64,000 bases of DNA, taken from positions 21,253-85,252 of IMG/VR virus record IMGVR_UViG_3300021379_000425; one strand, written 5' to 3'. This document shows positions 9,657 through 62,436 of the stretch, in pieces. The stretch comes from a virus. The notes below the pieces were generated by a model. That model was not told where the DNA came from and did not search any database. It saw nothing but the letters and a program-made list of their open reading frames with translations. A program made the position numbers and the translations under genes. Positions within the stretch are counted from its first letter, which is position 1; every line of letters starts with the position of its first letter.

Positions 9657-9676
9657 CTTTATCAGTTTAAATAGTC
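9657..9676 (-). promoter_or_regulatory. Conserved archaeal promoter cassette, copy 2
   Basis: Exact copy of CTTTATCAGTTTAAATAGTC. The TATA centre is about 44 bases upstream of the DUF932 start, leaving a short leader with a ribosome binding site. As at copy 1, the box also codes for the DYLN* end of the upstream gene (9662-10120). Confidence 0.85.
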
Positions 9677-32367: not shown

Positions 32368-32721
32368 ATGTCTCCTTTCCAAGACGCATGGAATATTTTG
32401 AAATCAAATGTCTATAATGCCGCTAGGCGTTCCACTTTACCAGCATATCACCCTGCGATTATGGGTATGATGGAAAGAAGATACTTGACAGGTGAAGCAG
32501 GACCATTTGAAGGATTTGAGCCTAGCGATGTCCACCCTAACGAGCAATCACCATTTAGAGTAAACAACATAGCAAATATGAGGGCTGATGAACTAAGAGG
32601 TAGAATACAACGCCAAAGTGTACCTAAAGTGATGCCGTATACAGATTCTCCTAGCGATGAAAACATAGACAGGGAATCTCGTGAGCAACTTCTTAGAGAA
32701 AGTAGACCGCAATTTAGATGA
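32368..32721 (+). CDS. Tagged small late protein, 117 residues
   Basis: Starts MSPFQDAWNILKSNVY, one of the N-terminal LLK-type peptides shared by several late proteins. The rest is polar, Arg-rich and apparently disordered (RADELRGRIQRQSVPK, REQLLRESRPQFR). No enzyme motif. It may be an internal head protein or another minor virion protein; this is inference from the tag and position. Confidence 0.6.
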   Translation: MSPFQDAWNILKSNVYNAARRSTLPAYHPAIMGMMERRYLTGEAGPFEGFEPSDVHPNEQSPFRVNNIANMRADELRGRIQRQSVPKVMPYTDSPSDENIDRESREQLLRESRPQFR

Positions 32722-32725
32722 TAAT

Positions 32726-32760
32726 GGTCATTCCAGTGGTCAACCAGTAAGTTTAACTTC
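32726..32760 (+). promoter_or_regulatory. Putative promoter/operator of the HMG-CoA-lyase-like gene
   Basis: A TATA-like GTTTAAC at 32751-32757 lies about 32 bases before the ATG at 32787. Directly upstream, GGTCATTCCAGTGGTCA (32726-32742) has two GGTCA half-sites. A similar pair stands at 50958-50974, before another promoterless-looking gene. Confidence 0.45.
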
Positions 32761-32786
32761 TACACCGCTATCGTCTGTAAGATAGC

Positions 32787-33620
32787 ATGGAAGTCACAGT
32801 GTACGAAGTCGGTCCTAGAGATGGTTTGCAGTACCTTGATGACATCGTGCCGACTAGAGAGAAAGTCAAACTAATCGAGATGCTGTACGACAGTGGGCTT
32901 ACCAAAATCGAGGAAGTCAGTTTCGCTCACCCCAAACTGCTACCGCAGATGGCTGACGCTGAGGCTGTTTTCACAGGGAGTGGGTCTGTGCTGGTGATGA
33001 ACCAGCGTGGGTTCGAGCGAGCCAATTCGTGCGGTGTCGTGCTAATCAATGTGGTTATCAGTCCTTGCGAAGTCTTCAATGTCAAGAATACCGGCAAAAC
33101 ACGGTCCGAGTTGATGACGATGTACAAAACAATGCTGGCGAATCACCCTAAGCAGTTCGTGAGGGTGTACATCAGCATGGCGTTTGGTAGTCCGTATAGT
33201 GGGCAGTTTAGTGCAAGAGAGATTCGTAACTGCGTGAGGGATGCAAGGATGCTTGGCGGTACAGTGGTCTTTGCTGATACCGTAGGGGCTGGTACGCCCG
33301 ATGAAGTAAAGATGATGGCTGACATAGCCAAAGATGAAGGTGTGCGCCCGGCTTTGCATCTGCATCATAAGGGCGAAGACGAGAAAGCGATTCGTTTGGT
33401 GCAGGCGGGGCTGATGGCTGGTATAACTGAGTTTGATAGCAGTATAGCCGGGCTTGGTGGGTGTCCGTTTGCTGAGGGTAGTGGTGCTAACCTGTCTACC
33501 TCGACACTGGTGCGTCATTTACATGCATGGGGCTTTGAGACAGGCGTTGACGAGAAAAAGTTAATTGCCGCTGAAAAATTCGTTAATTATTTTAGTCGTG
33601 ACTCCATCCCAGCCCCATGA
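32787..33620 (+). CDS. HMG-CoA lyase-like DRE-TIM barrel enzyme
   Basis: A 277-residue TIM-barrel lyase of the HMG-CoA lyase type (cleaves 3-hydroxy-3-methylglutaryl-CoA to acetyl-CoA and acetoacetate). Visible: VYEVGPRDGLQ (Arg11, Asp12), EEVSFAHPKLLPQM, SPYSG, ADTVGAGTPDE, metal-binding LHLHHKG (His191, His193), catalytic-loop AGLGGCPFAEG (Cys226) and GANLST (Asn235). These correspond to residues required in known lyases, so it is likely active. Slightly shorter than typical (about 300). Codons are more GC-rich than in flanking tagged genes, suggesting a recent gain. Its stop overlaps the next ATG, so it is part of the late transcript. Confidence 0.85.
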   Translation: MEVTVYEVGPRDGLQYLDDIVPTREKVKLIEMLYDSGLTKIEEVSFAHPKLLPQMADAEAVFTGSGSVLVMNQRGFERANSCGVVLINVVISPCEVFNVKNTGKTRSELMTMYKTMLANHPKQFVRVYISMAFGSPYSGQFSAREIRNCVRDARMLGGTVVFADTVGAGTPDEVKMMADIAKDEGVRPALHLHHKGEDEKAIRLVQAGLMAGITEFDSSIAGLGGCPFAEGSGANLSTSTLVRHLHAWGFETGVDEKKLIAAEKFVNYFSRDSIPAP

Positions 33621-33847
33621 GCGCATTTGACAAGGCGTGGAGTTTACTCAAGCAACAGCCAATGATAGGCGACCCGGAAGGACCTTTGGCACAAGCACTG
33701 GCTAGAGCAAGGCAACAACCAAAGCCAAAACCTTTGCAGATAACCAATCTACCGCCTAAAGAGCCTCAAATGGTGCAGACTCAACTGCCAGCCGAACTAA
33801 CTCAAGGCGCACATGAGACACCTTTCAAGATATTCGGTCAGCAGTGA
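33617..33847 (+). CDS. Tagged small late protein, 76 residues
   Basis: MSAFDKAWSLLKQQPM at the N-terminus, then a Pro/Gln/Lys-rich disordered tail ending PFKIFGQQ. It consists of little more than the tag. Overlaps the lyase stop as ATGA. Confidence 0.6.
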   Translation: MSAFDKAWSLLKQQPMIGDPEGPLAQALARARQQPKPKPLQITNLPPKEPQMVQTQLPAELTQGAHETPFKIFGQQ

Positions 33848-33851
33848 TAGC

Positions 33852-34604
33852 ATGACACCGATGGAGAAGGCTTGGCAATTGCTCAAGGCGACCTATCGCA
33901 TTGAGGCACAGCGACCAATGTATGCACATTCAGGTAGAAGGGAGTATAGGCTCTTAGACCAAGACGACAATGTTTTATCAACACTATCAGGTGATTTGTC
34001 AAGAAATAACAGTCTTAGTGATATTCACGGACATACTCGTGGAAAATACCGTAGACAAGGAAATTATAAAAAATTGATAAATGCTCTATTACAACAAGGT
34101 ATAGGTATAACTAGTAGTGAAAGAAACGATAAATCTCACCCATTTCATGAAAAGTTCATGTCTAATTTACCTAAGAATGTAGATTATGCTGATACATTTA
34201 ATGATTTTCACCACCTTACACCAATACACTATTCAAAAAAGAAAACCGCAAGATTCCCAAATAGCGATTTGAATATTCGTGACTACGGCTCTATTCCTAT
34301 ACATCATCTAGGATATGAAAATCCTACTGAAAATAGTAGATTCCACGGCACAATGGATAATAGAAGATTAACTGAATTTGCTGGTCATTCAATGTTCCCC
34401 GGTAGAGTAGCAAATCCTTTAGATTTCGCTAGAGACTGGGCATGGGAAGATTATGATAAAACTCGAAATGAAAAAGAGAAATTAAATCGTTTACAAGTGG
34501 ATAACCAACCTGAGACTTTCCAAGCCGGACTCGCTAATTATGACAGGAATTTTCTTAAACCGCCTGAATTACAGCAGTTCCTAGATGATATTAACCAAAG
34601 ATAA
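33852..34604 (+). CDS. Tagged protein with possible GNAT-like domain, 250 residues
   Basis: The tag MTPMEKAWQLLKATYR is followed by residues 25-120 that resemble a minimal GNAT acetyltransferase: strands REYRLLDQDDNVLS, then HGHTRGKYRRQGNYKKLIN (like the RGxG acetyl-CoA loop) and GIGITSSERND. The C-terminal half is polar with Arg/Asn/His. The GNAT match is suggestive only. The start at 33852 is four bases after the previous stop; a frame from 33813 overlaps it. Confidence 0.5.
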   Translation: MTPMEKAWQLLKATYRIEAQRPMYAHSGRREYRLLDQDDNVLSTLSGDLSRNNSLSDIHGHTRGKYRRQGNYKKLINALLQQGIGITSSERNDKSHPFHEKFMSNLPKNVDYADTFNDFHHLTPIHYSKKKTARFPNSDLNIRDYGSIPIHHLGYENPTENSRFHGTMDNRRLTEFAGHSMFPGRVANPLDFARDWAWEDYDKTRNEKEKLNRLQVDNQPETFQAGLANYDRNFLKPPELQQFLDDINQR

Positions 34605-34713
34605 TCATGATTAAGTCCTCTATTAGAGGCTTGATAATCTTCTCATACAACCATGCAAACGGCATTAAAATAATCGCTAAACAAACTTTTGCTACTCCTT
34701 TCAACAGTGACAT
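34591..34713 (-). CDS. Small membrane protein, 40 residues
   Basis: Starts after GATGGGGATTTGGG at 34713. A hydrophobic helix (VAKVCLAIILMPFAWLYEK) is followed by an amphipathic end (IIKPLIEDLIMIIFG). It lies 12 bases downstream of the minus-strand gene at 34726 and its last codons overlap the plus-strand gene end at 34604. The size and hydrophobicity recall holin-like or membrane-anchor peptides; role not shown. Confidence 0.5.
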   Translation of the reverse strand: MSLLKGVAKVCLAIILMPFAWLYEKIIKPLIEDLIMIIFG

Positions 34714-34725
34714 CCCAAATCCCCA

Positions 34726-36234
34726 TCAGTAGTAGAATTGGGGTGGAGTATATGTTGGTTTTGCTATATCATCAACATCTTCCTGCATTCCGGTGAGTAA
34801 TTTGACGACATGTTCCATGTCCGGGTGGATATTTCCTACCATAGTGCCGTCACTTGTCTCTTCAAATGTGTGATTGCGGTCTAGCACTGCAAGGTCACGG
34901 CGCATATCTTCACTGATTTCGTTAGGAAGTTGTAGTTCACCCTTGAGCATACGCCATGCTAAGTCCATTGGTTCACTTTTTAGTACTAATTTTTCATTTC
35001 CATATTCATCAGTTTCTATTACATAAGCCCCCGATGATAGCATCATCTGTACTTGTGGGTCATTGCGGTCAACTTTAGTTGGTTCTGCTTGGACATTCAG
35101 TGGATTGACAGTATCGTTTTTTGCCCTAATGTTAAGCAAGTTTTGTTGTAGCGGGTGCTGTGCTTGAAGATATGTAGACCTCGGTGCGCCAGTTTCGGGG
35201 TCAATATCCATTCTACCGGCAAAGTTTTGCATCATTCTATCAGCACCTTGCCTGTAAATGTTTCTTGGATTGAATATATTAGTTAAATTTGCAGAAGATG
35301 AAACATCATCTCTACTGATTCTACCGCCCTCAGCGACTCTTTCTACTGCTCTTTGGTTTATTTCTTGGGCAGATGGTCCTTTTGATTCCATAAATTTAGG
35401 TGCAGAAACGAATTCATACTCGGAATCTCTTATTGGATGCCATTCTTTTGTCTGTCGATGACCAGTATGATGTTCTGCGCCTACTGTTATTAAACCGATA
35501 CCGCTTCCTCCATCTTCTGCTCTTGATGTTTTATGTCCGATTACATAGTGTGGTCTATCAATGCCCTCTTTAGGTTCATCAGTGGAGAGTCCGGGTACTT
35601 TCAAAACAGGATATTCATTGTATGTTTCATTACCCAGCCTTGTTTCTATTTTAGTGTTAAGATACTCTTTCAGTTCGGGATTTTTCTCTAATAAAATATC
35701 TGCAACTGCAAGTGCTACATCTTCATGAGAATAACCCTCAAGACCTTTTGGCATTTCTTGATTCGGTTCTATTCTCTTATCAGCGTTTTTAGAATAATGA
35801 TTTTTATCTGCTAAACCGACAGTGTGTTTTTTCCCTCTTTTCATTTGTGCTTTAATATTGTCTATTTGACTGTCATTCCACATGGCATCCCATTTCCATG
35901 CTTTCATCAAATTCCAAAGGATGTCCATCGGCTCACCTGTGCGTATTTCGCTACCGGCTTTTGCCGCTTGAGCCATCTGTTGATTTTGATTCATCATGTT
36001 TTGCTGTTGCATTTGTTGGCGGTTTGCCTGTTGCTCACCTACATTTGAAGCGATTTGTCCAGCAGTTAGAGCCTGTCCAGCCTTCGTGTTGCCAGCCTGT
36101 ACTGCGACCTTACCTACTTTCTTGGCGGCCTGTTTAGCACCCTGTACTGCCGCCTGCCTTCCAGCCTGTGTAGCCACTGCACCAGCAACCGCCTTTGCAC
36201 CGGCGATAAGTGCAGGAGGTATGAACGCCGGCAT
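34726..36234 (-). CDS. Virion protein candidate with Ala/Gly-rich N-terminus and two EPMD tags, 502 residues
   Basis: Residues 1-65 are Ala/Gly/Val-rich with regular Lys (AGAKAVAGAVATQAG, AKQAAKKVGKVAVQAG), an amphipathic membrane-active pattern seen in ejection proteins. The tag occurs at 101 (EPMDILWNLMK) and at 421 (EPMDLAWRMLKG). The middle is polar with several His and Asn. The gene is on the minus strand inside the plus-strand late block. A membrane-penetrating or internal head protein is inferred. Confidence 0.6.
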   Translation of the reverse strand: MPAFIPPALIAGAKAVAGAVATQAGRQAAVQGAKQAAKKVGKVAVQAGNTKAGQALTAGQIASNVGEQQANRQQMQQQNMMNQNQQMAQAAKAGSEIRTGEPMDILWNLMKAWKWDAMWNDSQIDNIKAQMKRGKKHTVGLADKNHYSKNADKRIEPNQEMPKGLEGYSHEDVALAVADILLEKNPELKEYLNTKIETRLGNETYNEYPVLKVPGLSTDEPKEGIDRPHYVIGHKTSRAEDGGSGIGLITVGAEHHTGHRQTKEWHPIRDSEYEFVSAPKFMESKGPSAQEINQRAVERVAEGGRISRDDVSSSANLTNIFNPRNIYRQGADRMMQNFAGRMDIDPETGAPRSTYLQAQHPLQQNLLNIRAKNDTVNPLNVQAEPTKVDRNDPQVQMMLSSGAYVIETDEYGNEKLVLKSEPMDLAWRMLKGELQLPNEISEDMRRDLAVLDRNHTFEETSDGTMVGNIHPDMEHVVKLLTGMQEDVDDIAKPTYTPPQFYY

Positions 36235-36256
36235 GGAATTACCATAGAGCGATAAT

Positions 36257-36266
36257 TCTTTAAATT
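36257..36266 (+). promoter_or_regulatory. TATA box of the 903-residue gene
   Basis: TTCTTTAAATTA region, centre about 25 bases before the ATG at 36287; no ribosome binding site precedes the ATG. A leaderless transcript is expected. Confidence 0.6.
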
Positions 36267-36286
36267 ATCCGTAATTAAAACATTTC

Positions 36287-38998
36287 ATGCGTAGGGGCGA
36301 AGACATCGAGAAAGCCCCTTCCAAACCTAAATCTTTCAAAGAATATTTAGAAACAATGCTGTCCGAAACTCCACCGTGGGCTTTGTACGAGGAAGGTGGA
36401 GAAACGGCACTTGATTATTCACCTTACGACCACCCTAAACTGAAAAATGTTGAAGATAAAAAGAAAGAAGATAAATTAAGAGAGTTGCTATTACATGATG
36501 AACCTAGATACCGACCTAGACTTCTTGACCCCGAAAATGCTGTGTTTGTACCTAAATTAGATGATAGATTAGATTCTGTTATAGATGACCCTTTGATAAA
36601 CTATGGTAAAAAATTCGCAAAGCCTTTTGAAAATGTAATAAGACAGGGTAAAAGATTAGTTGACCCTAAATTAATACGACCAAAATCGAGTGTACAAACT
36701 ACATTACCGCAACATTTTCCTAGACTAACAACCGAAAATCCTTACGATGAAGAGGGTAGAATAAAACCCGGTGCTATTGCGCCGATAACTGCTTTTAAAC
36801 AAATGGGTAGAGATGCTTTCAATAATCTTCTTTCTTACGGTTTGATACCCGGATTAACAGTTGATTCCTTAGATTGGGAAGATAGGTCTAATTTACGAGA
36901 TATGACTCCTGTTCCTGTAAAATCGGGGGCATCATTTGTAGCCCCAGTAGGTACTTTAGATGCCATAAGGGGTACAATGAATCAATCGGGAGGTCGAGGA
37001 AAACCGATTTATGTAGGCATTAGAGGATTTGCACAACCGGAAGATAAAGCATTCTTGAGAACAGACAGTAGAGAACCAATAGAGGCGGCGGCTTTGGGTC
37101 GTATTCCACCGGAAAGATTGGTTTTACCTTTCAATGTAGCACAATCGGGAAAGGAATTTGGAAGCCCACTTTCTTTTGAAGAATGGCGAAATGCTTCAAA
37201 AGGACCTACAACATTTGAAGATTATGTGGCACAAATGAAAGGTCCGAGGTATCTTCAACATTTACAAGATGCTGGATATACGGAAGAAATAGATGATTAC
37301 AGGCAACTTTGGAATAGTAGACAAGATATGCAAAGATTAGATTATGAAAAGTATTTACAAACAATGAAAAATTCTAGTATAAGAACAAATTTATTGAATC
37401 AAAGACTGGCTGAATTAGGAGAAGATTTTCCACCCTTAACGGCTGAAAATTACCCAATGGAAGGGGGGCAAAGAAATCCTTACCAAACATTATACTACGA
37501 ACATCTTTACGAAGATAAATTTCCAAAAACTGCCGCTGATACAAAAAATACAAGGGTAAAACAGGCTTTAGGTGCTGTGCCGAAAGAATGGAGTCAAAAC
37601 ACTAAATTTAATTTGATGAACCCTGCTTTAAGCGATGCTGAAAGGGAAGCAATAAGACAAGAATTTCAAGCGAATGCTGACCACGAAATACATATGAATA
37701 GTAGACATGATGGCACTGTTCACCCTGCTCAATTCAATAGAATTACAAGAGGTTTGATGAGCGCAATATATGGTCCACAAGCATCTAATATGATTGATTT
37801 CCGAGACAATGTAGGAGATTCTTATTCCGAAAGAGGTGAAAAAATAGGATTAGAAATGAATAACCCAGCGGCGGCATCGTTAGGATTACCTAATACATGG
37901 AACGCACCTCAATTATTCAATCCTAATTTCAATCCTAATCAATCAGTGATAAAAGCACCAAGAATCACTGCATACAGTCCTAGAGAAATAAGAGACATAG
38001 CACCCGACCTGCAAGGAATTAGGTATATACCGAAAGAATACTTAGAATCCGCTGGTAAGCCAATTAGAGTTCATAGTGGTGGGAAAAGAGGTGTAGGGCA
38101 ATCCTATGATTGGGAGCAGGATTTACAGCGATTAAAATACGATATACCGCAAAGTAGTTTTTATTCATGGATGATAAATAAACCAAAACCGCTTACAGGT
38201 TTGTTTAGTGAAGAATTTAGAATGATACCCGAATACAATATTGCAGGAAGAGAGTTAGAATTATCTCCGGTTGAAAGTGGAAATATTGTCGCTGGACAGT
38301 TTATGCACCCACCAGTAAAAGAAGCATTAAGAGAACCCGATTATACTGCACATCTTCACAGACCGATGGCTCTCACTGGAATATTGGAACAGCCTCAATT
38401 CATGAGAGAAGGAACTGAGGGGTCTAAAGGATTAGGTGAAGGATTCCACTATGGAGAACTAGAGCCGGATTCTGTCGTACAATTAGAACTACCACATAAT
38501 ATACAGCCTATGGAAATGGCTAGTGTTGCTAGGAAAAGAGAGTATGATAGACCTAGAAATCAAAGAGAGAAAGACGCAATGAATTGGTTAAGCCACATAC
38601 CAAGTATGGGTGTGCCTACATCTACTGAATGGTGGAAGCAACAGGGTGCAACGGAAATGACCGCACCTCAACTTGAACAGGCTGGATTATTCCAAGCCGG
38701 TGAACCAATGGACATCGCTATGCAGTTGCTAAAGCGGGAGATGAGTCCGGAAGCGAAACAACATAAACTCGAATATGACAAGAAGTATGAGTCCACGCCG
38801 GAGAGAGTCAAGTATCGTGAAGAGTTGAACCGTGAGCGCAGAAAGCGTGGTATCTACGGTAGCGGCGACCATATGGATGTCAGTCACACCGAGGGTGGTA
38901 AGTTAACTCTCGAAGGTGAACATGAGAATAGAGCGAGACATTTCAAAGAGCGTGGTACGCTTAGACCTAGCAAAATCGCTGTACGCAAAGACAATTGA
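36287..38998 (+). CDS. Large tagged late protein with C-terminal HNH-like tail, 903 residues
   Basis: Residues 1-800 are polar, Arg/Pro/Tyr-rich and not recognised; a compact region at about 210-290 (FVAPVGTLDAIRG, GKPIYVGIRGF) may be a folded domain. The tag EPMDIAMQLLKREM lies at 806. After it comes a basic tail: KLEYDKKYESTPERVKYREE, RRKRGIYG, DHMDVSHTEGGKL and HENRARHFKERG. This resembles the H-x-x-x-H/N-R core of small phage HNH-like nucleases. A virion-associated DNA-binding or nicking protein is possible. Confidence 0.6.
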   Translation: MRRGEDIEKAPSKPKSFKEYLETMLSETPPWALYEEGGETALDYSPYDHPKLKNVEDKKKEDKLRELLLHDEPRYRPRLLDPENAVFVPKLDDRLDSVIDDPLINYGKKFAKPFENVIRQGKRLVDPKLIRPKSSVQTTLPQHFPRLTTENPYDEEGRIKPGAIAPITAFKQMGRDAFNNLLSYGLIPGLTVDSLDWEDRSNLRDMTPVPVKSGASFVAPVGTLDAIRGTMNQSGGRGKPIYVGIRGFAQPEDKAFLRTDSREPIEAAALGRIPPERLVLPFNVAQSGKEFGSPLSFEEWRNASKGPTTFEDYVAQMKGPRYLQHLQDAGYTEEIDDYRQLWNSRQDMQRLDYEKYLQTMKNSSIRTNLLNQRLAELGEDFPPLTAENYPMEGGQRNPYQTLYYEHLYEDKFPKTAADTKNTRVKQALGAVPKEWSQNTKFNLMNPALSDAEREAIRQEFQANADHEIHMNSRHDGTVHPAQFNRITRGLMSAIYGPQASNMIDFRDNVGDSYSERGEKIGLEMNNPAAASLGLPNTWNAPQLFNPNFNPNQSVIKAPRITAYSPREIRDIAPDLQGIRYIPKEYLESAGKPIRVHSGGKRGVGQSYDWEQDLQRLKYDIPQSSFYSWMINKPKPLTGLFSEEFRMIPEYNIAGRELELSPVESGNIVAGQFMHPPVKEALREPDYTAHLHRPMALTGILEQPQFMREGTEGSKGLGEGFHYGELEPDSVVQLELPHNIQPMEMASVARKREYDRPRNQREKDAMNWLSHIPSMGVPTSTEWWKQQGATEMTAPQLEQAGLFQAGEPMDIAMQLLKREMSPEAKQHKLEYDKKYESTPERVKYREELNRERRKRGIYGSGDHMDVSHTEGGKLTLEGEHENRARHFKERGTLRPSKIAVRKDN

Positions 38999-39001
38999 TA
39001 C

Positions 39002-39206
39002 TGTTCACTATGTTCACTATGTTCACTTTGCTCATCAAAGTGTTCACTAAAAATGACCATTTCGATTGCCTAATGTTCAATATATCCCTTATTATAATAA
39101 TATAATATTAAGAGTAGTAGTACTATGAAAAAATGAACATTCTCATTCTGCTCATTTTGAATGAACAAAGTGGTGAACATTTTGAACAAAGCGAACATTT
39201 TGAACA
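39002..39206. repeat. Symmetric TGTTCA/TGAACA array B with AT-rich core
   Basis: TGTTCA at 39002, 39011, 39020, 39041 and 39074; TGAACA at 39134, 39162, 39174, 39183 and 39201, plus CGAACA at 39192. This is a five-by-five inverted arrangement around an AT-rich centre (39080-39110) and AGAGTAGTAGTACTATGAAA at 39111-39130, which differs from array A at one of 20 bases. Same orientation as A. It fills the gap 38999-39239. Confidence 0.87.
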
Positions 39207-39239
39207 CAATCTTTATGATGACCTCTCGGTTGACCATAA

Positions 39240-39815
39240 ATGAGGACAATGGATGAAATCAATCACTCGGAAGCAGAAATAAGACTACTGGGGCTGATAC
39301 TTACTCAGTCTGCATTGGTTGGATTAGCAATCGGAGTATTCGACTCGGACATATGGTTGAATAACGATGATGCGTTGGTAAACGGCTTTACATATGCAAT
39401 GGCCGCTTTCTTTATACAAGGAATAGCATATTATTTCTTTAAGATGTTCTTTGAACAGAACATGCAAGAAAGAGTCAAGATGCAGAATATTGAGAGACAA
39501 AGACAAAGCAGATTCAAGAATATGCAAAGCACATTTGATAATCGTAGAGCAGAAATGGAGTTAAGAATGCAAGAAGCACAACTAGAGGCTGAATTGCGCT
39601 GGATGGAGTCCAACCCCGGTAAAATGCCTCCTTCATGGGGTGTACAAGGTGGTTCACCTTCACTGATAAATCAGTATGAAAATAAATTAATTACAAATCC
39701 TCCTACACATCAAGCAGAAATAAAACAGCCAATTAATCTAGGAATAAAAGATGAAGAGGAAGAAGTACCTCTAAAGAAGGATGGAACACCGGATAAGAGA
39801 TACAAAACCGAGTGA
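39240..39815 (+). CDS. Membrane protein with coiled coil, 191 residues
   Basis: Two hydrophobic helices (LLGLILTQSALVGLAIGVF, GFTYAMAAFFIQGIAYYFF), then a long charged coiled coil (about 80-125, MQERVKMQNIERQRQSRFK) and an acidic tail with KKDGTPDKRYK, a short motif seen at the ends of many phage proteins. A membrane-anchored scaffold facing the cytoplasm is likely. TATA-like CTTTATGATG is at 39211-39220. It may begin at 39249 (second ATG after GAGGACA). Confidence 0.65.
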   Translation: MRTMDEINHSEAEIRLLGLILTQSALVGLAIGVFDSDIWLNNDDALVNGFTYAMAAFFIQGIAYYFFKMFFEQNMQERVKMQNIERQRQSRFKNMQSTFDNRRAEMELRMQEAQLEAELRWMESNPGKMPPSWGVQGGSPSLINQYENKLITNPPTHQAEIKQPINLGIKDEEEEVPLKKDGTPDKRYKTE

Positions 39816-39820
39816 TGTAA

Positions 39821-40081
39821 ATGGGTCGCATATTCAAAACCCCTTCCGATGACTCTACGGAGGCAACGCTTAGGGCTATGCATACCCAAAATACTCTTGA
39901 CACATATTACGAAAAAAGTTTAGGATGGATTAGAACCGTAATAATAGGGTTTATCGCAGTATTGATAACAAGTTTTTATGAATTACAAACAGGAAATTCC
40001 GTATGGGAGGGTACAGTAGAATGGTTTTACGGCAAGGTGGAAAATTTAGCGAATTTCTTATTCGGGTGGTTGTATGGTTGA
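39821..40081 (+). CDS. Small membrane protein, 86 residues
   Basis: One clear transmembrane helix (WIRTVIIGFIAVLITSFYE) and a hydrophobic aromatic C-terminus (ENLANFLFGWLYG). Five bases after the previous gene; its end overlaps the GTPase gene by 8 bases, so it is translationally coupled to it. Confidence 0.65.
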   Translation: MGRIFKTPSDDSTEATLRAMHTQNTLDTYYEKSLGWIRTVIIGFIAVLITSFYELQTGNSVWEGTVEWFYGKVENLANFLFGWLYG

Positions 40082-40790
40082 ACCAGCAGGTACGGCACTT
40101 GTTGGTGCGATGGTTTGGGGAAAAGCGGTCTTCAATTCATACAGGCCACGCAAGGTCGGCATTTACGGCGCAGGACTAGTTGGTAAAACTACACTTGACC
40201 GCTTTATGACAACTCCGGGTGAAATGGAAGAGATTGATGAAGAAGATAGAACAACACACCTAAAATTACTGGGTAAATTTCTCTTACCTAAACCGACAAG
40301 AAAAAGAGTAGCATGGAAAGGAGAAAAGAGAGTAGTCTTTTCATCCGATATAGGTGGACAAGAGAGATTTTGGAATCTATGGATAGATGATATGGTATCA
40401 AGACAAGTAGAGGCTGTTGTCTATGTATTTGATGATAGAGCAGTAAAAGGCGGTGATGATGCATTACAACAGATTGCTGGGTTCAAATATCTAGTAGACG
40501 CAATAGTGTACAAGCAGTATCGTTATCGTAGTTTGAAAAGTAAAATTAAAGGAAAAAGATATTCTCCAAAACTGATTATGTTAGTTGCTAACAAAGCGGA
40601 TAGGTTCTTTGACGAGACTGCCGCAATGCTTTGGGGGCAAGACAGAATAGGAGAACACAAGATATTCGACCCGTTTAGAGATGATTTGATTAGGCTACAA
40701 AAGAACGGTATACCTACAAGAAAATCTTTCATGGCTACAAGAATAGGGTGGAATGTTGAAAATACAATGGTAAGTCTTTTGACAACATAG
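40074..40790 (+). CDS. Arf/Ras-like small GTPase, 238 residues
   Basis: G1 loop GIYGAGLVGKTT (Lys38, Thr39), G3 SSDIGGQERFW (Asp92, Gly94, Gly95, Gln96), followed by the Arf-like W, and G4 MLVANKAD (Asn173, Lys174, Asp176). A switch I threonine may be in DRTTHLK. The D-x-GGQ form is typical of Arf, Sar and Galpha rather than translation GTPases. The N-terminal 20 residues (AGTALVGAMVWGKAVF) are hydrophobic and could insert into membrane as in Arf. An insertion at 145-165 is Lys-rich. It probably switches an assembly or membrane process with the two membrane proteins upstream. Confidence 0.75.
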   Translation: MVEPAGTALVGAMVWGKAVFNSYRPRKVGIYGAGLVGKTTLDRFMTTPGEMEEIDEEDRTTHLKLLGKFLLPKPTRKRVAWKGEKRVVFSSDIGGQERFWNLWIDDMVSRQVEAVVYVFDDRAVKGGDDALQQIAGFKYLVDAIVYKQYRYRSLKSKIKGKRYSPKLIMLVANKADRFFDETAAMLWGQDRIGEHKIFDPFRDDLIRLQKNGIPTRKSFMATRIGWNVENTMVSLLTT

Positions 40791-40799
40791 GTGAGATAT

Positions 40800-40967
40800 A
40801 TGGATAAAACGAAAATAGTATCAGTTGGTAAGGCAAGCAATAGCGTAAGAACTGTCATACCGATGTGGGTTGCTAAAATGTTAGAGATAGAAGTAGGCGA
40901 TAAGGTAACTTGGCAGATAGTAAAAACTGACAATGGCTATGCGGCAAGAATAGAGGTGGTAGAATGA
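40800..40967 (+). CDS. AbrB/MazE-type swapped-hairpin DNA-binding protein, 55 residues
   Basis: The frame MDKTKIVSVGKASNSVRTVI followed by PMWVAKMLEIEVGDKV matches the AbrB/SpoVT/MazE fold: two strands, a turn with VPxxVxxxLxIxxGD-like spacing, and a closing hairpin. Starts ten bases after the GTPase stop behind GGTGAGA and overlaps the next ATG. It may regulate this transcript or bind the nearby array B. Confidence 0.75.
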   Translation: MDKTKIVSVGKASNSVRTVIPMWVAKMLEIEVGDKVTWQIVKTDNGYAARIEVVE

Positions 40968-41887
40968 ATCAAGGATATAATTTAGCAGAAGTAAACACAG
41001 CGCATTTGTACGCTTTGAGTCAACAGGGTAACAATATGCTTTCTCATCAAGCCCTTAGTGACCAAGCATTAGCGCAAACAGCAATGCAAGAAATAGGTAC
41101 TGAACAGAATTTACAAGTTCCTAAAGTAAATTTCTACCCAAGTAGACATCCCGACCCTCATAAGGCTAGAAGAAAAGACATCAAACAGGCTTACAAACTT
41201 CTTATGCCTTCAAAACGAAACTTTTTCAATCCGGCAAGAATGTTCTTAGGTCGTAAACATAGATACAACAAGCAAACAAATGTTTGTGTTGTTGATGGAT
41301 GCGATTGTGCTACTTTAATCAAATATGATAACTTGTATGATAAAATTAAAGATGAAGAAACTGGAAAATCTCTTTGGGAATTATACTGGCAAAATCCAGT
41401 AACAGGTGAAGATGAAGCGTTTATTGCGAAAGAAAAAGTCACAAATGGTAGAAAAATGAGAGGTACATATTGCCCCGAACATTTACATCTCTATCATTTG
41501 CTATGTAAGTGGGAAGCAGAAGAAGAGAAAATTCGTGAAGCAAACCCAAGAAGATTGCGTGACCATGTGAGAAAAGGAGTTAGTGTTGTTACTGTACCAG
41601 TATCGACTATCAAAAGAAAAGACCCCACTCCTAAATTCTTAGAAAAGTACGAAGGATTCTTTGCTGAACTAGAAAAAGACTCTAAGAGGACAAAAGGTAT
41701 CAACATTCTGCATTATCAAAACCCTCAAAATGGAATGAATGATGTCACTATGATTGTTTTTGACCTTAGAATATTCCAGCAAGAACTAGCAATGATGAAC
41801 CAACCGACCCCTGCATTTCAACAAATGATGAATGGGCAAGTTAATATCCAAGCCCCTGCTGAGGAAGTACCACTGATGGGTGAGTAA
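40964..41887 (+). CDS. Unknown late protein, 307 residues
   Basis: Has a Gln/Asn/Ala-rich N-terminus and a central basic domain with a possible zinc site (CVVDGCDCATL, then YCPEHLHLYHLLC). The C-terminal part has a strand (DVTMIVFDLRIFQQE) and a disordered tail. No enzyme motif. Starts by overlap with the AbrB-type gene. Likely virion or assembly protein by position. Confidence 0.55.
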   Translation: MNQGYNLAEVNTAHLYALSQQGNNMLSHQALSDQALAQTAMQEIGTEQNLQVPKVNFYPSRHPDPHKARRKDIKQAYKLLMPSKRNFFNPARMFLGRKHRYNKQTNVCVVDGCDCATLIKYDNLYDKIKDEETGKSLWELYWQNPVTGEDEAFIAKEKVTNGRKMRGTYCPEHLHLYHLLCKWEAEEEKIREANPRRLRDHVRKGVSVVTVPVSTIKRKDPTPKFLEKYEGFFAELEKDSKRTKGINILHYQNPQNGMNDVTMIVFDLRIFQQELAMMNQPTPAFQQMMNGQVNIQAPAEEVPLMGE

Positions 41888-41888
41888 C

Positions 41889-42476
41889 ATGCTCGGACTC
41901 GGAAATAATAATCAACAACCAATGAATAACGGTATGCTTAATTTAGGTGTACAAACACAAACACAACCTGTACCGGGTCAATTCCCCGGTATGGTGCAAC
42001 AACAACAGTTTGGACAACAAATGTATCAACAACCAGCACCTCCTAGTGAAATGGAAATGCAGATTCTTTTGTTGAGAGGTATAGTTCCTGTTGACAGGTT
42101 TATCGCAAGTAATCAAATGGCTACACTAGTACAACTAATCAACAATGTGGTTAGTCTAAGTGTTCTTGAGGTTATGAAGAACGCAGTATTCATTGAAGAC
42201 GAAGAGGCTGGCGGATTAAAACTAGATATTACTAAACTACCAAGTCATCTTCAAACAATGAGTGCTGAGAACATCAAGGCTGAGTTTGCTACAATGCAAG
42301 GCACTGCACAAGGTAACATTCAACAGGCTGAGATGACACAGCAACAAATAGCGCAAATGGCTCAACAATCTGCAATGAGTGGTGCAATGCAACGCTTGAT
42401 GCAAGATGAAAGTCTAATGGATAAGGCTGGTGAAACCGCTGGCAAGTTCATGGGCAACTTCTTAGGCACGAGATGA
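41889..42476 (+). CDS. Gln-rich late protein, 195 residues
   Basis: The N-terminus is a Gln/Pro/Asn low-complexity region (GQFPGMVQQQQFGQQMYQQ). The middle is helical and amphipathic (LVQLINNVVSLSVLEVMKN), with more Gln repeats and a Met-rich C-terminal helix. Start at 41889 follows GGTGAG. Probably a structural or assembly protein. Confidence 0.55.
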   Translation: MLGLGNNNQQPMNNGMLNLGVQTQTQPVPGQFPGMVQQQQFGQQMYQQPAPPSEMEMQILLLRGIVPVDRFIASNQMATLVQLINNVVSLSVLEVMKNAVFIEDEEAGGLKLDITKLPSHLQTMSAENIKAEFATMQGTAQGNIQQAEMTQQQIAQMAQQSAMSGAMQRLMQDESLMDKAGETAGKFMGNFLGTR

Positions 42477-42480
42477 TAAT

Positions 42481-42723
42481 ATGGATGAAAGGAGATACAT
42501 GCCAAGTGGAGTGGCGGCTTCAACGCTAGATGTTTTGAACCCTACAAGAAGCGTTACTGTTGATATGATAATGGTACAGTTCTTGTCTGCCATACTTACA
42601 ATTCTTGTAATCATATTATTCAAAGGTCAAACTTTAGGTTCTTCTACTGCATCTTACTTGATGCTCGCTATGATAGCATCAATTATTATGCTCTCAACAG
42701 TATATGCTAGAATAACCAAATAG
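42481..42723 (+). CDS. Two-helix membrane protein, 80 residues
   Basis: Helices FLSAILTILVIILF and YLMLAMIASIIMLSTVYA joined by a Gly/Ser-rich turn, with charged ends on the same side. The size and topology fit a holin-like or membrane scaffold protein; no proof of lysis function. Confidence 0.6.
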   Translation: MDERRYMPSGVAASTLDVLNPTRSVTVDMIMVQFLSAILTILVIILFKGQTLGSSTASYLMLAMIASIIMLSTVYARITK

Positions 42724-42963
42724 TCACCATTTGTTTAACGGGCAATTAGAGTTGAACAGATTTGTTTTAGCATTAATAAAACATCCACATTCAAGACAAC
42801 GGTTGTTTCTTCTACTTGGGCATGTTTGACAAATTCTGCGTCTTTCATCTTTGAGTATAGCGGGTGCAAATCGACCCTTAGCCGTGTCACTGATAGCCAT
42901 TTTCAAACTATCAATTGATTCTTTTGTGAGAGGCACTTTTGCTATTCTCTTTCCCTTCCACAT
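42724..42963 (-). CDS. Small zinc-binding protein, 79 residues
   Basis: A C-terminal zinc module RRICQTCPSRR, CLECGCFI and CPLNKW, as in a phage small-protein family with CP...KW ends, after a basic N-terminal part. Convergent with the gene at 42481-42723 (stops adjacent), and divergent from 43023. Confidence 0.6.
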   Translation of the reverse strand: MWKGKRIAKVPLTKESIDSLKMAISDTAKGRFAPAILKDERRRICQTCPSRRNNRCLECGCFINAKTNLFNSNCPLNKW

Positions 42964-42978
42964 GATTTGCCCAGCACC

Positions 42979-42986
42979 TATTTAAC
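42979..42986. promoter_or_regulatory. TATA box in a divergent gap
   Basis: TATTTAAC at 42979-42986 lies in the 59-base gap between the divergent genes at 42963 and 43023. The spacing suits a plus-strand start near 43010 with a short leader. A second TTTAAC lies at 43011. Confidence 0.45.
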
Positions 42987-43022
42987 CATAATCGTTTTGA
43001 ATAACCATTGTTTAACCATGCT

Positions 43023-43700
43023 ATGGGCGGAGAGCGTGTTGTAAAACGCTCATGTGCATTTTGCACACATGAAGACCGTGACAAACTTGAGGAACAACTG
43101 CTTCAAGGTTACATTTCTCCAAAGCAACTGGACAAAGATATGGGTTGGAGAACAAACACCACTGACCGTCATTTTCGCAATCACATGGGCGAGTATCACA
43201 TGGCTTCAAACACAAGTTGTGCGCTTTGTACTACACCACTGAGAGCAGATTACGAGAGAATCTATTTTGAGGATGGAAGTAATATAGAAAGGATTGCCAG
43301 TGAATTAGAAATAAGTGAGGATAATGTATATCATCACATGAAGCACCACTTCCAACCGTTAGTGCAAAAGTCTGCGGCAGTGGAAGTAGCATTAGTCGCT
43401 GGGCAAGAAATAAACCTATTGAGGTCAAACGCTGAAAAATTAAACTACAAACTGAGCGAACTGCTTGACGAAGGCACTGTTCATGAAGATGGATTCGTAA
43501 GAGATGCTGTTGCCTTGCACAAGGAAGTTAGAGAAACTGTCAAAGACTTGCTACGCTTCCAAGACCAATGGGGTGCGAAGGCTGAGGGTCAACAAGTCAA
43601 TCAAACCTTCAACATTCTACAAGTTGAACTGGGTAAAGAAAGCCCCGAAACTTGGTCTAGGATAAAGAATCAATTAATGGAAAATATGGGGGTTGAATAA
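43023..43700 (+). CDS. Tandem CxxC-HTH protein, terminase small subunit candidate
   Basis: 225 residues with two copies of one unit: CAFCTHEDRDKLEEQLLQG…TTDRHFRNHM and CALCTTPLRADYERIYFED…EDNVYHHMKHH. Each has a CxxC, an HTH and a His/His end that can complete a zinc site. A long helical tail follows. The second HTH (IERIASELEISEDNVYHH) is clearly DNA-binding. Its place before the terminase cluster suits a terminase small subunit; a regulator is the alternative. Starts at the ATG at 43023. Confidence 0.6.
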   Translation: MGGERVVKRSCAFCTHEDRDKLEEQLLQGYISPKQLDKDMGWRTNTTDRHFRNHMGEYHMASNTSCALCTTPLRADYERIYFEDGSNIERIASELEISEDNVYHHMKHHFQPLVQKSAAVEVALVAGQEINLLRSNAEKLNYKLSELLDEGTVHEDGFVRDAVALHKEVRETVKDLLRFQDQWGAKAEGQQVNQTFNILQVELGKESPETWSRIKNQLMENMGVE

Positions 43701-45757
43701 TGCCAATGATGGGAAGAGGTTCGGACACTCGTATGTACTCGCCCCGTAGCGAGTCCGACAAGATGTATTCATCGGCTAATGAAGACGAGAGTAAGTATAA
43801 TCCTGCGTCACCCGAATACAATGAGGAAAAGCGTGAGGAAAAGAAACGCAAAGAAGAAGAGCGCAAGGAAAGCCGTTCCAAAATAAAACATATCAAAATT
43901 CGTGCATCACAAGGTCTTGGTGAAGAAACCAAAGAAGAAGGGCTTGATGATGGCAACAAGCGTGATGATGAGCGTGAAATGGCTCTTCAAGGTGGTCCTG
44001 CCGGAAGTAGAGGTACACTACTTGACCTCGCTACTGGGGCGAAGAGTGGAACTGGAAGTGCAATGAGTCCGGGTCTACCTATTGCTATGAGCGAACCAAT
44101 GACTGACGCTTGGAGTGACTTGTTAAAGTCTAAGAAAATATCTCCGGGTATTGGCGCAGATGAGTCCGATGCTTTAGAAGAGAGAATGAGAAGGGCTGGC
44201 GAAAAAGTTGGAAGAGATTTCTCTCATTTAGGACAAAGGAGAGTAGAAACAGGTAGAAGTAAGCGTGGAGAAGTAAGTAGAAATTTTAAAACATCAACTG
44301 GTGGCACTGGTAAACTATACACAGGTCCAAGAAATAATCGTGCGTATAGAAGAGAACTGGCTGAAAAGCAAAAAGAGTTAGAGGAAGAAAGAAGAAAGAC
44401 AGAAGATTTCATAAATCGAACCAAAATACACCCCGGAGAGGAAAATTTTAGACCGGATAAAATGATTAACACTGATTCTATATCTAATTTACACGAATCG
44501 GGTTTAATTGAACCGCAAGATGTAGCAAGAGATACTGATAGAGGTGGCTATGCAAGAATAGAAATGGATGGCGACAAACCTGTTTCTACTGGTGTTGCAC
44601 CATCGGAATTTAACGACCTTAGAGGTGCGATGTCTATTGAAGAGGCTTTTGATAGAGCCGAAAGAGGTATACCAGTTATTGAAGTAAATCCCGAACACCC
44701 TGATATGGCAGATGTAGGGGATATAGAATCCGATATGACTGGTACATACATACCCGAATCGCCTAAGATGCAATTTGGTTTTCGTGAAAATCCTTACTTG
44801 AGAAATACTAAAACTGGTAATTTTGCTAGAGTAGATGCAACGCCTTCATTCCGTGGTATTCCGTTCAATGAAAATACATATTTCACAGCGAGTGAGCCAA
44901 TGGATAATGCATGGAGTAGTTTGTTAAAGAGAGAAACACCAAAGACAATTGCATCTCGAAGAAGAAGAGAAGCAAGACAACAATTCCGACCAAGCACAGG
45001 ACAATTCAAGACACCTCCGGGCGGTATGACACCGGAGGGTTCCACAATGCGAAGATTCAAAGCCCGTATGCGTGGTATCAAGGGTGGAAAGAAAACAGGT
45101 TTGATGAAACCTCACCTTTCTGTCGAGATGTCACACAGGGGTATTCAAACGAAGCAACCGTTGAGTAAAGACCCACAAAAGTACACACAATACAAAGGAC
45201 AATCCGAGGCAAGAAAGATTCTCGGTGGTGCAAGAACTGTATATTCTCCACATGCAAGATACGGTGCTAGGTCGAACATAGCAGGACCAACTGGTGCTGG
45301 AAGATTAAGCGGTGTCTTACCTTCTCAAAGAGGACAAATGACAAGACCTTCTCTAAGACAAATGGGTATAAGAAGACCAAGAATGCCTAGAGTAATGAGG
45401 CCACCAATGCCTCCACAACCAATGATGCCACAAATGCAATCATCTGTACCAAGTATGCCAGCACCTATCATGGCGAGCGAAGAAAGAGCGCACAGTGAAC
45501 TTCTAAAGGCAAACTTCGCAAGAAGAATGGAGTTGCTTGAATTGATGAGAAGGCTCATTCGTGCAAAAGAAAAGGAAGCAAAAATCAAGAAGAACATCAA
45601 AGGAACTGATGAAGCACTAGTACCCGGACACCCTGTTGGAGTAAGGGCAACTGATGATGAAGACCCCGATGGACCTACTGAAAACACAGAAACAGATGCA
45701 AAGTTGTTCGGTCTTGACCCTGCTCATATTGTATCACGCAGGGGGCATATGGGATGA
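43700..45757 (+). CDS. Virion protein candidate with two EPMD tags, 685 residues
   Basis: Highly charged, with a Glu/Lys/Arg coil near 40-60 (EEKREEKKRKEEERKESRSK). Tags occur at 132 (SEPMTDAWSDLLKS) and 399 (SEPMDNAWSSLLKR). The C-terminal third is Arg/Pro/Met-rich (MRPPMPPQPMMPQM) and ends with Asp/Glu. Mostly disordered, DNA-binding composition. Likely an internal or scaffold protein; the two tags divide it into three parts of about 130, 270 and 285 residues. Confidence 0.6.
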   Translation: MPMMGRGSDTRMYSPRSESDKMYSSANEDESKYNPASPEYNEEKREEKKRKEEERKESRSKIKHIKIRASQGLGEETKEEGLDDGNKRDDEREMALQGGPAGSRGTLLDLATGAKSGTGSAMSPGLPIAMSEPMTDAWSDLLKSKKISPGIGADESDALEERMRRAGEKVGRDFSHLGQRRVETGRSKRGEVSRNFKTSTGGTGKLYTGPRNNRAYRRELAEKQKELEEERRKTEDFINRTKIHPGEENFRPDKMINTDSISNLHESGLIEPQDVARDTDRGGYARIEMDGDKPVSTGVAPSEFNDLRGAMSIEEAFDRAERGIPVIEVNPEHPDMADVGDIESDMTGTYIPESPKMQFGFRENPYLRNTKTGNFARVDATPSFRGIPFNENTYFTASEPMDNAWSSLLKRETPKTIASRRRREARQQFRPSTGQFKTPPGGMTPEGSTMRRFKARMRGIKGGKKTGLMKPHLSVEMSHRGIQTKQPLSKDPQKYTQYKGQSEARKILGGARTVYSPHARYGARSNIAGPTGAGRLSGVLPSQRGQMTRPSLRQMGIRRPRMPRVMRPPMPPQPMMPQMQSSVPSMPAPIMASEERAHSELLKANFARRMELLELMRRLIRAKEKEAKIKKNIKGTDEALVPGHPVGVRATDDEDPDGPTENTETDAKLFGLDPAHIVSRRGHMG

Positions 45758-47781
45758 AGGTAAGAGTCATCAAGGCGGAAGGTGTACTCGCTTACCTACA
45801 AGATGGTCCTGTTTATCTTAGAAATCCACCAGTTAATGCACTAAGAGCAGAAGGACAGCCGGATGTACCACCATTTGCTCACGATGGACAAGGTAATGTC
45901 TTAGACGGTGAATACAAAGTAGGACCTCATGGAGAGCAAGTGTTTGATGCCGGGTTCGCTCATCACAGACACGGTATAGATTCGGTGGCTCACCATCTTG
46001 GAGAATTTTTGAAAAATAGAGGTTCAAGGGTCAATCCAGTTGATGTAATTAATCATGCTATTGAAGAGTTCAATGATAATCACACAGATGGCGATACACA
46101 TGCATTAGATAATTTTGATTCTCCACAGTGGAGAAAAACGAATGCGAATGTTTTGCCGGGCGGTGATTCTGCATATAATAAAGAAACTAACGCATTTACC
46201 CACACAAGACCTACAAGAACAAACGCTGGTAAAAAGATTACTAACTATACAAATAAAAATTATCAAACTAATCAATTCGGTAGATTCGTAGAATCATATG
46301 CTATTCCTTTCCATGCTGAATTATTGAGAGCGTTAGTAGATATGGGATTCTCAAGAAACGAACTAATGCAAAGTAATCTAAACTTCTTGAAATATCCTTA
46401 TCTTCCAGTAGAAAAAACTGTTCACTCCCTTGACCCCGATAACGAGATTGGTAAAGTTATAAGATTACACAAACCTATTGGTGACTCCACAGTAACAGAT
46501 GAGGCTAGAAGACAATCTCCTACTGATTACTTTGGTGATACTACACCAGTATTCACATACAATACTCTTCATCATTTACCCGACATATTCTTCCATCCCG
46601 ATTTGAAAGAGTCACTAGGTAAAAAGGGTAAAGTACACTCTTGGGACCACAAAGGAGGACTGTACGCACAGGCTGAATCAATTATTAATCAAGCATTAGA
46701 AAGAGGTGTAGAACACATACCTAATGTTGAAGTTACAATCAATGAAGGCACAATGGGCAATCCACAAATGATTACTAGACCACTTAGAGAAATACTAACT
46801 ACACCGGATTTGAAGCGAAGTCTTATCCAAGACATGTCGCATGTACCTGCTATGATGTATCTTTTTGGTAGGAGTAATCAAGGTAATTTCAAGAAACTAG
46901 AAAACTACATGACGCAGAAATTTGGTGGTGAAGAAGACGGTTTATCCTACGAACACCATCTAGGTTATTTCAAAGCCGGTGAAAAGGGTGGAAAGGGTAT
47001 GCACTCTTCCGCAAGAAGAATCATGGCATTGGCTAGAAAGTCCGGTGTCGGAGAGGCTGAGGACAGGAGTAAATTTGGTGAACACACAATTACGCCCGAT
47101 GAACTTCGTGCGGCTGATATGTATTCTAATGAAAATCTAATGGGTCAAGTTGATAGATTCCGAAATGTATTGGAAGCACTAGCAGACCACCAATCTAATG
47201 CAAGAGGATTAGAACCTAGAATGGTATTAGGAGATATTCCTACATCGCCTCTAATTGCTCCGAATGTTGGTAATTTTCCGGCAGTTAACCCCGAAACAGG
47301 GCAATTAGAAACAGGACTTGAACCACATATGGAAGAGTTCCTACATCACCCGCATGAATATGCGCCTACATCAGCATACGACCCTAGTATGTCTGCTCCA
47401 CAACAGAATGTCCTAGCAGGTCAGTTGCCTCCAATTGTCGGTTCTCCAACCTCCGGCGAGTCACTTCCTCAACCTCCTGTTAGGACACCTCAACCTCCTA
47501 TGGGTGCTATGCCAACATCGTACCCACACACAGCAAGACAACAGTTCCAGCAACTAAGACCACAGTTTGCTGGTCTTGACCCAAGACAGTTTAGACAAGT
47601 ATTGGATATTGCTGGTTCAAGAAGAGCAGGTGCGCCTATAACTGATGACCCACTCTCTCCTGTTGAGATGAGAGCGCAACAAGCATTGGCTGACCCAGCG
47701 CAAACATTACTTCCATTCTTTAACAAGAGCAATCCAATCGGCGGTGCTTTTGACCTACTGAAAAGGAGGGGCATATTATGA
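45754..47781 (+). CDS. Large late protein with C-terminal LLK peptide, 675 residues
   Basis: His- and Asn-rich N-terminal half (HHRHGIDSVAHHLGEFL). A helical middle part follows (VPAMMYLFGRSNQGNFKKLE), then a Pro/Gln-rich linker, and the end NPIGGAFDLLKRRGIL resembles the tag. No enzyme motif. Starts by ATGA overlap. A structural role is inferred from position between tagged proteins and terminase. Confidence 0.6.
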   Translation: MKVRVIKAEGVLAYLQDGPVYLRNPPVNALRAEGQPDVPPFAHDGQGNVLDGEYKVGPHGEQVFDAGFAHHRHGIDSVAHHLGEFLKNRGSRVNPVDVINHAIEEFNDNHTDGDTHALDNFDSPQWRKTNANVLPGGDSAYNKETNAFTHTRPTRTNAGKKITNYTNKNYQTNQFGRFVESYAIPFHAELLRALVDMGFSRNELMQSNLNFLKYPYLPVEKTVHSLDPDNEIGKVIRLHKPIGDSTVTDEARRQSPTDYFGDTTPVFTYNTLHHLPDIFFHPDLKESLGKKGKVHSWDHKGGLYAQAESIINQALERGVEHIPNVEVTINEGTMGNPQMITRPLREILTTPDLKRSLIQDMSHVPAMMYLFGRSNQGNFKKLENYMTQKFGGEEDGLSYEHHLGYFKAGEKGGKGMHSSARRIMALARKSGVGEAEDRSKFGEHTITPDELRAADMYSNENLMGQVDRFRNVLEALADHQSNARGLEPRMVLGDIPTSPLIAPNVGNFPAVNPETGQLETGLEPHMEEFLHHPHEYAPTSAYDPSMSAPQQNVLAGQLPPIVGSPTSGESLPQPPVRTPQPPMGAMPTSYPHTARQQFQQLRPQFAGLDPRQFRQVLDIAGSRRAGAPITDDPLSPVEMRAQQALADPAQTLLPFFNKSNPIGGAFDLLKRRGIL

Positions 47782-50951: not shown

Positions 50952-50977
50952 ATCATAGGTCATTTGAGTGGTCATTA
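50946..50977 (+). promoter_or_regulatory. Putative promoter with GGTCA pair
   Basis: TATA-like GATTAAATC at 50946-50954, 27 bases before the ATG at 50977, so transcription could begin at the start codon. GGTCATTTGAGTGGTCA (50958-50974) overlaps the start site, matching the pair at 32726-32742 at 15 of 17 bases. Confidence 0.5.
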
Positions 50978-54389: not shown

Positions 54390-54399
54390 GGTGGACTAC

Positions 54400-62431: not shown

Positions 62432-62436
62432 ATAAT

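Follow-up and report, generated by a model that had tools for sequence, protein, structure and literature searches.

Phage T4 is described as loading its internal proteins by means of N-terminal propeptides of 10–19 residues, which are removed by the T4 protease (PMC9026906), and an ADP-ribosyltransferase, Alt, is among the proteins that it packages (PMC9026906, PMC5512222). Polyvalent proteins, described for portal-terminase phages, join many disparate effector-like domains in one polypeptide and are likewise thought to be packaged (PMC5512222). Here we analyze a short recurring peptide, the tag, in a virus record of 85,252 bases (IMGVR_UViG_3300021379_000425), of which bases 21253–85252 form the 64,000-nucleotide stretch that we call the window; all positions given by number alone are positions in the window. 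The tag is a predicted helix of about 12 residues on otherwise unrelated proteins. Its modular reuse, its placement with the structural genes, its restriction to one virus lineage and a signature upstream of its internal copies are observed. A sequence-only reading of this DNA had proposed capsid targeting of the T4 type. Capsid targeting stands as the best available reading, because tagged genes lie with the late structural genes, an S78 prohead protease is encoded and some tagged families resemble enzymes injected by phages (ADP-ribosyltransferase-like, GNAT-like, SLOG and, weakly, SAM lyase), but an N-terminal cleaved leader does not fit the positions of most copies. With a probability of roughly 55%, we infer that the tag is a docking helix which targets a modular set of effectors to the capsid, for delivery by the virion.

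Tags were scored with a 14-position matrix and a threshold of at least 16 bits. The full (second) matrix was applied to 1,737 unique proteins from 139 sequences and leaves out a 54-member family of coil proteins that was present in the first matrix; for the strictest matrix, every protein clustering with a window protein (BLAST E 1e-5, 60% coverage) was removed before retraining, and distant relatives may remain in it. The firm set in the window comprises eight tags on six proteins, with the consensus E-P-M-D-x-A-W-x-L-L-K when internal and M-S-[PA]-F-D-x-A-W-x-L-L-K when at a protein start. Three proteins on the plus strand begin with a tag: a 117-residue protein at 32368–32721 (MSPFQDAWNILK, 32368–32403; 26.5 bits with the full and 25.0 bits with the strictest matrix, an order kept below), a 76-residue protein at 33617–33847 (MSAFDKAWSLLK, 33617–33652; 32.7 and 33.0 bits) and a GNAT-like protein at 33852–34604, whose open frame runs from 33813 (MTPMEKAWQLLK, 33852–33887; 34.0 and 34.4 bits). 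Internal tags are found in the other three. Protein 34726–36234, on the minus strand, has EPMDILWNLMK at residues 101–111 (35902–35934; 27.8 and 26.6 bits), preceded by I-R-T-G, and EPMDLAWRMLK at residues 421–431 (34942–34974; 37.4 and 37.6 bits), preceded by V-L-K-S. On the plus strand, protein 36287–38998 has EPMDIAMQLLK at residues 806–816 (38702–38734; 37.1 and 37.2 bits), with F-Q-A-G before it and a phrog_6437 domain (E 1.3e-17) on its C-terminal side, and protein 43700–45757 has EPMTDAWSDLLK at residues 132–143 (44093–44128; 21.7 and 16.1 bits) after I-A-M-S, and EPMDNAWSSLLK at residues 399–410 (44894–44929; 28.7 and 24.3 bits) after F-T-A-S. Once the tags are masked there is no cross-match among the tagged window proteins at E<0.01, which bears out the earlier statement that the tagged proteins are otherwise unrelated.

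The coordinates and residue numbers of the sequence-only reading all hold. It had counted at least seven tagged proteins, of which the six above are firm and two are marginal. One of these is protein 13452–14102 on the minus strand, with an N-terminal tag (MSAFDEAFDYLR, 14067–14102) that scores 17.6 and 9.8 bits; a 70%-identical homologue scores 14.8 bits and a 54%-identical one has a similar helix by eye. Its former label as a kinase finds no match in Pfam, no match in PHROGs and no relevant sequence match in the PDB; a HipA-like look is seen by eye only. The other is protein 45754–47781 on the plus strand, which ends in NPIGGAFDLLK (47731–47763; 19.6 and 15.1 bits, with an overall range of 14.9 to 19.6 bits). 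This C-terminal form was rejected as a proper tag, and the claim made for it is left unsupported, since most homologues end in other sequence. Also doubtful is a tag-like coil without Trp, ESMDNTLNILK (54454–54486, plus strand; 16.4 and 17.8 bits), in the small coil protein 54361–54750, whose whole 54-member family matched the first matrix.

With the strictest matrix the scores of the eight tags in the six window proteins range from 16.1 to 37.6 bits, compared with 0.02 matches of at least 16 bits per window for shuffled window proteins. The full matrix finds 361 stretches of at least 16 bits, spread over 137 protein clusters, versus 0.2 per shuffled set, and 245 of 1,683 unique proteins reach this score versus a single one when the same 1,683 proteins are reversed. 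A chance origin is rejected on this last comparison and on the scarcity of the peptide in cellular genomes (three strict-pattern stretches, see below). A different kind of explanation is that the shared stretch is a DNA element which promotes recombination between genes and has no function in the protein. Modules are shuffled, and codon choice inside the tags is partly shared (Ala is GCT in 108 of 164 cases), a leftover bias that points to common descent. The two commonest tag peptides, however, are encoded by non-identical DNA in every instance compared (9/9 and 7/7), so that the constraint appears to act on the peptide, and the N-terminal forms differ in sequence yet keep the residue pattern. 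An element acting as DNA was already disfavoured and is, to our minds, highly improbable.

To follow the tag through viruses and cells, a strict degenerate DNA pattern for the core peptide was searched in the viral collection and in 84,980 cellular genomes. The pattern finds 42 viral stretches in 38 records, all of which were then searched, and three cellular stretches, where about one chance match is estimated from base counts. Two of these three lie outside any tag-scoring open frame of at least 60 residues, and the third is in a protein that resembles a trypsin-type peptidase by eye. The sequence-only reading would have been contradicted by the peptide in unrelated cellular proteins with another known role, and three chance-like matches in 84,980 genomes are all that was found. 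The terminase of the present virus occurs in 37 of the 38 strict-tag records at 51–100% identity (one match is partial, at a contig end), and the sole record without it is a 20-kb fragment; the capsid protein occurs in 33 of the 38 at 76–99% identity. For the terminase matches in G015, G016 and G027 and the capsid matches in G009, G018 and G032 the alignment crosses one or two stop codons, which may be the gene end. Among 80 terminase loci, 70 have at least one tagged gene, with 120 tagged genes in a total of 1,485 called, and in halovirus HVTV-1, with a capsid protein 36% identical, no stretch in 41 kb around the capsid gene reaches 10 bits. The tag is thus restricted to this virus lineage.

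The virus itself looks like a magrovirus, the name given to viruses of marine group II archaea (PMC10160649). We base the assignment on its family B DNA polymerase, its chaperonin and its halovirus-like capsid protein; archaeal-type replication genes and chaperonin genes are found together with such a capsid protein, as in magroviruses. Portal, terminase, prohead serine protease and the kinship with haloviruses are also shared with the magroviruses as described in PMC10160649. Neither a tag nor a packaged effector set was found in the portions of the magrovirus and Poseidoniales literature covered, which include few subscription papers and were not searched for the peptide itself as text.

The placement of tagged genes could be compared in seven records of 85 to 110 kb, which hold 8 to 14 tagged genes apiece. 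In these genomes the strand that encodes the structural genes also carries 62 of the 66 tagged genes, versus 368 of the 786 untagged ones; the 66 include the coil protein, the gene starting at 14102 and the 45754 form. Many tagged genes are found in an accessory island before the terminase gene or right after that gene, and in one genome three stand directly past the capsid gene. These numbers bear on a model in which the helix docks on a partner outside the virion, either in a replication or transcription compartment or on one host protein, and the tagged set is addressed inside the infected cell. Such a model would sit well with tags that recur and are not bound to one position, both common in docking motifs, and with the one marginally tagged gene among left-arm genes. 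It would not account for the strand preference, for the clustering near terminase or capsid genes in the seven genomes or for the signature before internal tags described below, and we consider it unlikely.

The composition of the tagged set bears on a second model, in which the tagged proteins are the prohead core, the tag holds core or scaffold proteins to one another while the head is built, and the enzyme-like domains act as filler or as minor passengers. The one core family with a tag in nearly all members is that of 43700–45757, a structural-arm protein (57/59 members with the first matrix), and the set often contains small domains of visibly basic composition, among them DUF5872, DUF6321 and phrog_6437; such a core could explain both observations. 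Unlike a conserved core, however, the tagged set varies strongly among genomes, with one or two members in most tagged clusters, and it includes enzyme-like folds; a prohead core therefore seems to us a quite improbable identity for the set. Among other families with at least 20 members, the first matrix matched the coil family throughout and three more in part, and it had no match in the families of terminase, portal and a 1898-residue protein. In named phages there was no match to protein 43700–45757. Within the tagged island itself, gene 32787–33620 encodes an untagged HMGL-like enzyme (PF00682, E 3e-22), whose family has 0/24 members tagged with the first matrix, and in a related genome a 5,545-residue open frame adjoins tagged genes (G015:C1:7630-24264, pieces L166 and L167).

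Capsid targeting by the tag also has to agree with where the tag stands in proteins. Of 409 instances, a count that like those of the upstream features includes the coil family, 284 start at least 25 residues into the protein and 105 lie within 8 residues of its start, and some copies are C-terminal. After removal of near-copies, 82 N-terminal copies give a form of about M-[STNR]-[PA]-F-[DE]-x-A-W-x-[LV]-L-K and 154 internal copies one of about [GS]-E-P-M-[DE]-[IL]-A-[WMF]-[RSQ]-L-L-K. Internal copies are preceded by a signature, [FIVK]-x-[TKA]-[GS]-E, that is rare before N-terminal ones: I, F, K, V or L predominate at position −4, position −2 is T, K or A, position −1 is G or S and position 0 is E. 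Position −4 lies outside the matrix and so provides a fair test of the signature; it is hydrophobic or Lys in 130/154 internal tags, compared with a background of 35% in all proteins. Positions −2 to 0 belong to the matrix, and the counts for those three are biased. All four upstream features are present in 99/154 internal copies versus 1/16 of the N-terminal copies that have at least four preceding residues. Positions −3, −5 and −6 are far less conserved, which speaks against mere shared descent.

We read the upstream site as a cut because internal copies have it and N-terminal ones mostly do not. The opposite arrangement, a leader at the protein start that the protease removes, had been proposed from the T4 comparison and does not fit here, the only signature resembling a protease site being the one before internal tags, with none comparably conserved downstream of the N-terminal ones. 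The likeness to T4 as described (PMC9026906) thus lies in a short peptide on unrelated proteins, a prohead protease and an ADP-ribosyltransferase-like fold among the tagged proteins; the present copies differ in being mostly internal and repeated and in having the candidate cut before the helix, whereas T4 removes an N-terminal propeptide. On our reading the tag works like the T4 capsid-targeting sequences but is not one of them, because most copies are not N-terminal. The function of the T4 sequences was shown by experiment, whereas that of the tag is proposed from sequence.

The candidate protease is encoded at 61055–62431 (plus strand) as an S78 prohead protease (PF04586, E 1.1e-9) joined to a long scaffold-like region. 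This arrangement resembles the herpesvirus assemblin–scaffold fusion, as does a candidate site with a hydrophobic residue a few positions upstream and a small residue at the cut. The assemblin sites given for pseudorabies virus are YLQA-T and VQA-S (PMC4498786), and maturation in phage SPN3US (gp245) is described as cutting after A-X-E, with a preference for Val at P4 (PMC10052503). By analogy with the sites listed in these sources, the candidate site recalls the assemblin sites more than the A-X-E of SPN3US, which we offer as a lead only. An alignment of 27 protease–scaffold sequences, some of them near-identical, was inspected by eye: a Y-L-x-W-M-E-x-T-L-K stretch is conserved within the variable region, and the C-terminus has a conserved helix with Trp, about A-N-M-x-W-x-E-V-H-x-L-A. 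Both were rejected as tags, since neither fits the tag pattern, and both could be docking elements. The other candidate docking partner is the SU10-like major capsid protein at 62428–63537 (plus strand; PF17236, E 2.5e-13), which is about 36% identical to halovirus capsid proteins.

Terminase large subunit (48628–50115, plus strand; phrog_38, E 8.2e-59) and portal protein (52260–53996, plus strand; phrog_18178, E 1.6e-65) complete the structural genes discussed here, all of which lie in the right arm of the window. The portal has a weak zinc-ribbon match, below the cut-off, near residues 85–107. Between terminase and portal, gene 50968–52263 has an HNH-endonuclease PHROG match (phrog_5046, E 5.5e-9) and a LAGLIDADG match below the cut-off. 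The 1898-residue protein mentioned above (55313–61009) lies between portal and protease, belongs to a 64-member family and has no PHROGs match across its first 1000 residues; the equivalent interval of HVTV-1 encodes proteins that include one of 1048 residues and another with the annotation 'zeta toxin'. Elsewhere in the window, protein 40074–40790, from a 44-member family, has a weak Roc GTPase domain match below the cut-off (PF08477, E 0.0064), and the left arm encodes a tyrosine-phosphatase-like protein (9662–10177; PF13350, E 8.9e-6, over the cut-off).

If the tag addresses cargo, its spacing should tell how the cargo is built. Where one protein has several tags, the median distance between successive ones is 160 residues (quartiles 117 and 216, minimum 73, n = 116), and a single protein, itself cut by the contig end, has eight. 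Cutting the proteins at their tags gives 514 segments in 182 families, of which 49 occur in at least two proteins and 9 are found both alone behind an N-terminal tag and within multi-tag proteins. Multi-tag proteins with domain-sized segments, most of them unannotated, may resemble the polyvalent proteins of phages and conjugative elements, and the portal–terminase pair that goes with polyvalent proteins is present, with both genes in the window and the terminase in 37/38 records as given above. The present modules differ in being separated by one recurring tag and in occurring also singly behind it; the part of the polyvalent-protein account consulted describes no such tag (PMC5512222).

The identities of the cargo were sought in 137 cluster representatives. 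Nineteen match phrog_6437, a module also matched by four named cyanophage records, and the Pfam matches are to DUF5872 (4), YspA-type SLOG (3), DUF3293 (3), DUF6321 (2) and, weakly, SAM lyase (2, best E 8.5e-5), with one representative each for GNAT, HD, methyltransferase and DUF7831; the majority match nothing in Pfam. PADLOC matched four families with one member each; the NCBIfam results, among 25 families, included one match of SpoT/RelA type (4e-8) and DnaJ-type matches with one member each. The multi-tag protein L037:5332-7146 has GNAT (E 0.008) and DnaJ-type zinc (E 0.026) matches, both under the Pfam cut-offs, and a match to ART-PolyVal is under its cut-off at E 0.096.

Two cargo families could be assigned to folds from structure models. 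The model of protein 33852–34604, which has no Pfam match, has an overall predicted local distance difference test score (pLDDT) of 58.8 with a core near 90; its VIA matches are nearly all acetyltransferases (best Z 7.9, root-mean-square deviation (rmsd) 3.7 over 109), and Foldseek places pieces of isocitrate lyase 2 on top (E 4e-4), with GNAT proteins next. Its core is likely a GNAT-like fold. Seven of the eight proteins in this family are tagged, and the eighth begins at a locus edge with an apparent tag end. The model of L007:9892-10329 (pLDDT 78.8) matches mostly ADP-ribosyltransferases in VIA (best Z 8.9, rmsd 2.7 over 82 residues; best Foldseek E 0.03), and its family likely has an ADP-ribosyltransferase-like fold; four of its seven members pass the tag threshold. 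All five kinase-like proteins, of which two are near-identical, have an N-terminal tag; the kinase-like label stands for a reading by eye plus one weak YrbL match (E 0.009). PDB sequence searches with one ADP-ribosyltransferase-like and two kinase-like queries found nothing relevant, and a scan of the viral collection with one ADP-ribosyltransferase-like cargo detected nothing other than the query, in two contigs. When the ADP-ribosyltransferase-like module of L020 was used for an iterative local search, tags and low-complexity sequence were drawn in, and the result was discarded.

Several observations weigh against capsid targeting with cleavage. We see no canonical tag or obvious receptor in the protease–scaffold or the capsid protein, and no long propeptide in the latter. 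Four of the 66 tagged genes lie off the structural strand, including the marginal 14102 gene in the other arm. In the signature, Pro sits one residue past the presumed cut, and all four upstream features are present in only 8/21 C-terminal tags. Most tagged proteins have no recognisable function or annotation and the fold matches are modest (VIA Z 8.9 and 7.9, and Foldseek E 0.03 for the ADP-ribosyltransferase-like model). Among the seven ADP-ribosyltransferase-like proteins two near-identical ones are untagged, and one, the modelled member, has by eye a degenerate N-terminal helix.

Taking both sides together, we propose that, in this archaeal virus lineage, the helix draws proteins into the head as the head assembles, where it would dock on the capsid protein or on the scaffold-like part of the protease. 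Stand-alone cargo would have the helix at its N-terminus and multi-domain proteins one helix per domain-sized module. The S78 prohead protease of the virus may then cut at [FIVK]-x-[TKA]-[GS]-E before internal copies, so that every module would be released with the helix as its new N-terminus; this cleavage is less certain than the loading. Together with the DNA, the cargo would be expelled into the host, where it would act early. It would comprise GNAT-like, ADP-ribosyltransferase-like, kinase-like and SLOG domains, small zinc or basic domains and many more without an assigned identity. We put forward more tentatively, as something we would not yet bet on, the full scheme in which one transferable helix loads an open-ended and fast-changing set of host-takeover enzymes and tag-jointed polyproteins are cut by the prohead protease into effectors that are still tagged.

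If the proposal is right, virion loading and polyprotein processing would be combined in one short element, and the tag would provide a portable loading signal for another capsid type. Sequence would then suffice to list the proteins packaged by these uncultured archaeal viruses, each tagged gene, most of which are at present without annotation, being a predicted injected protein. What these viruses inject into their hosts, a question that has long been open, would become directly testable by proteomics.

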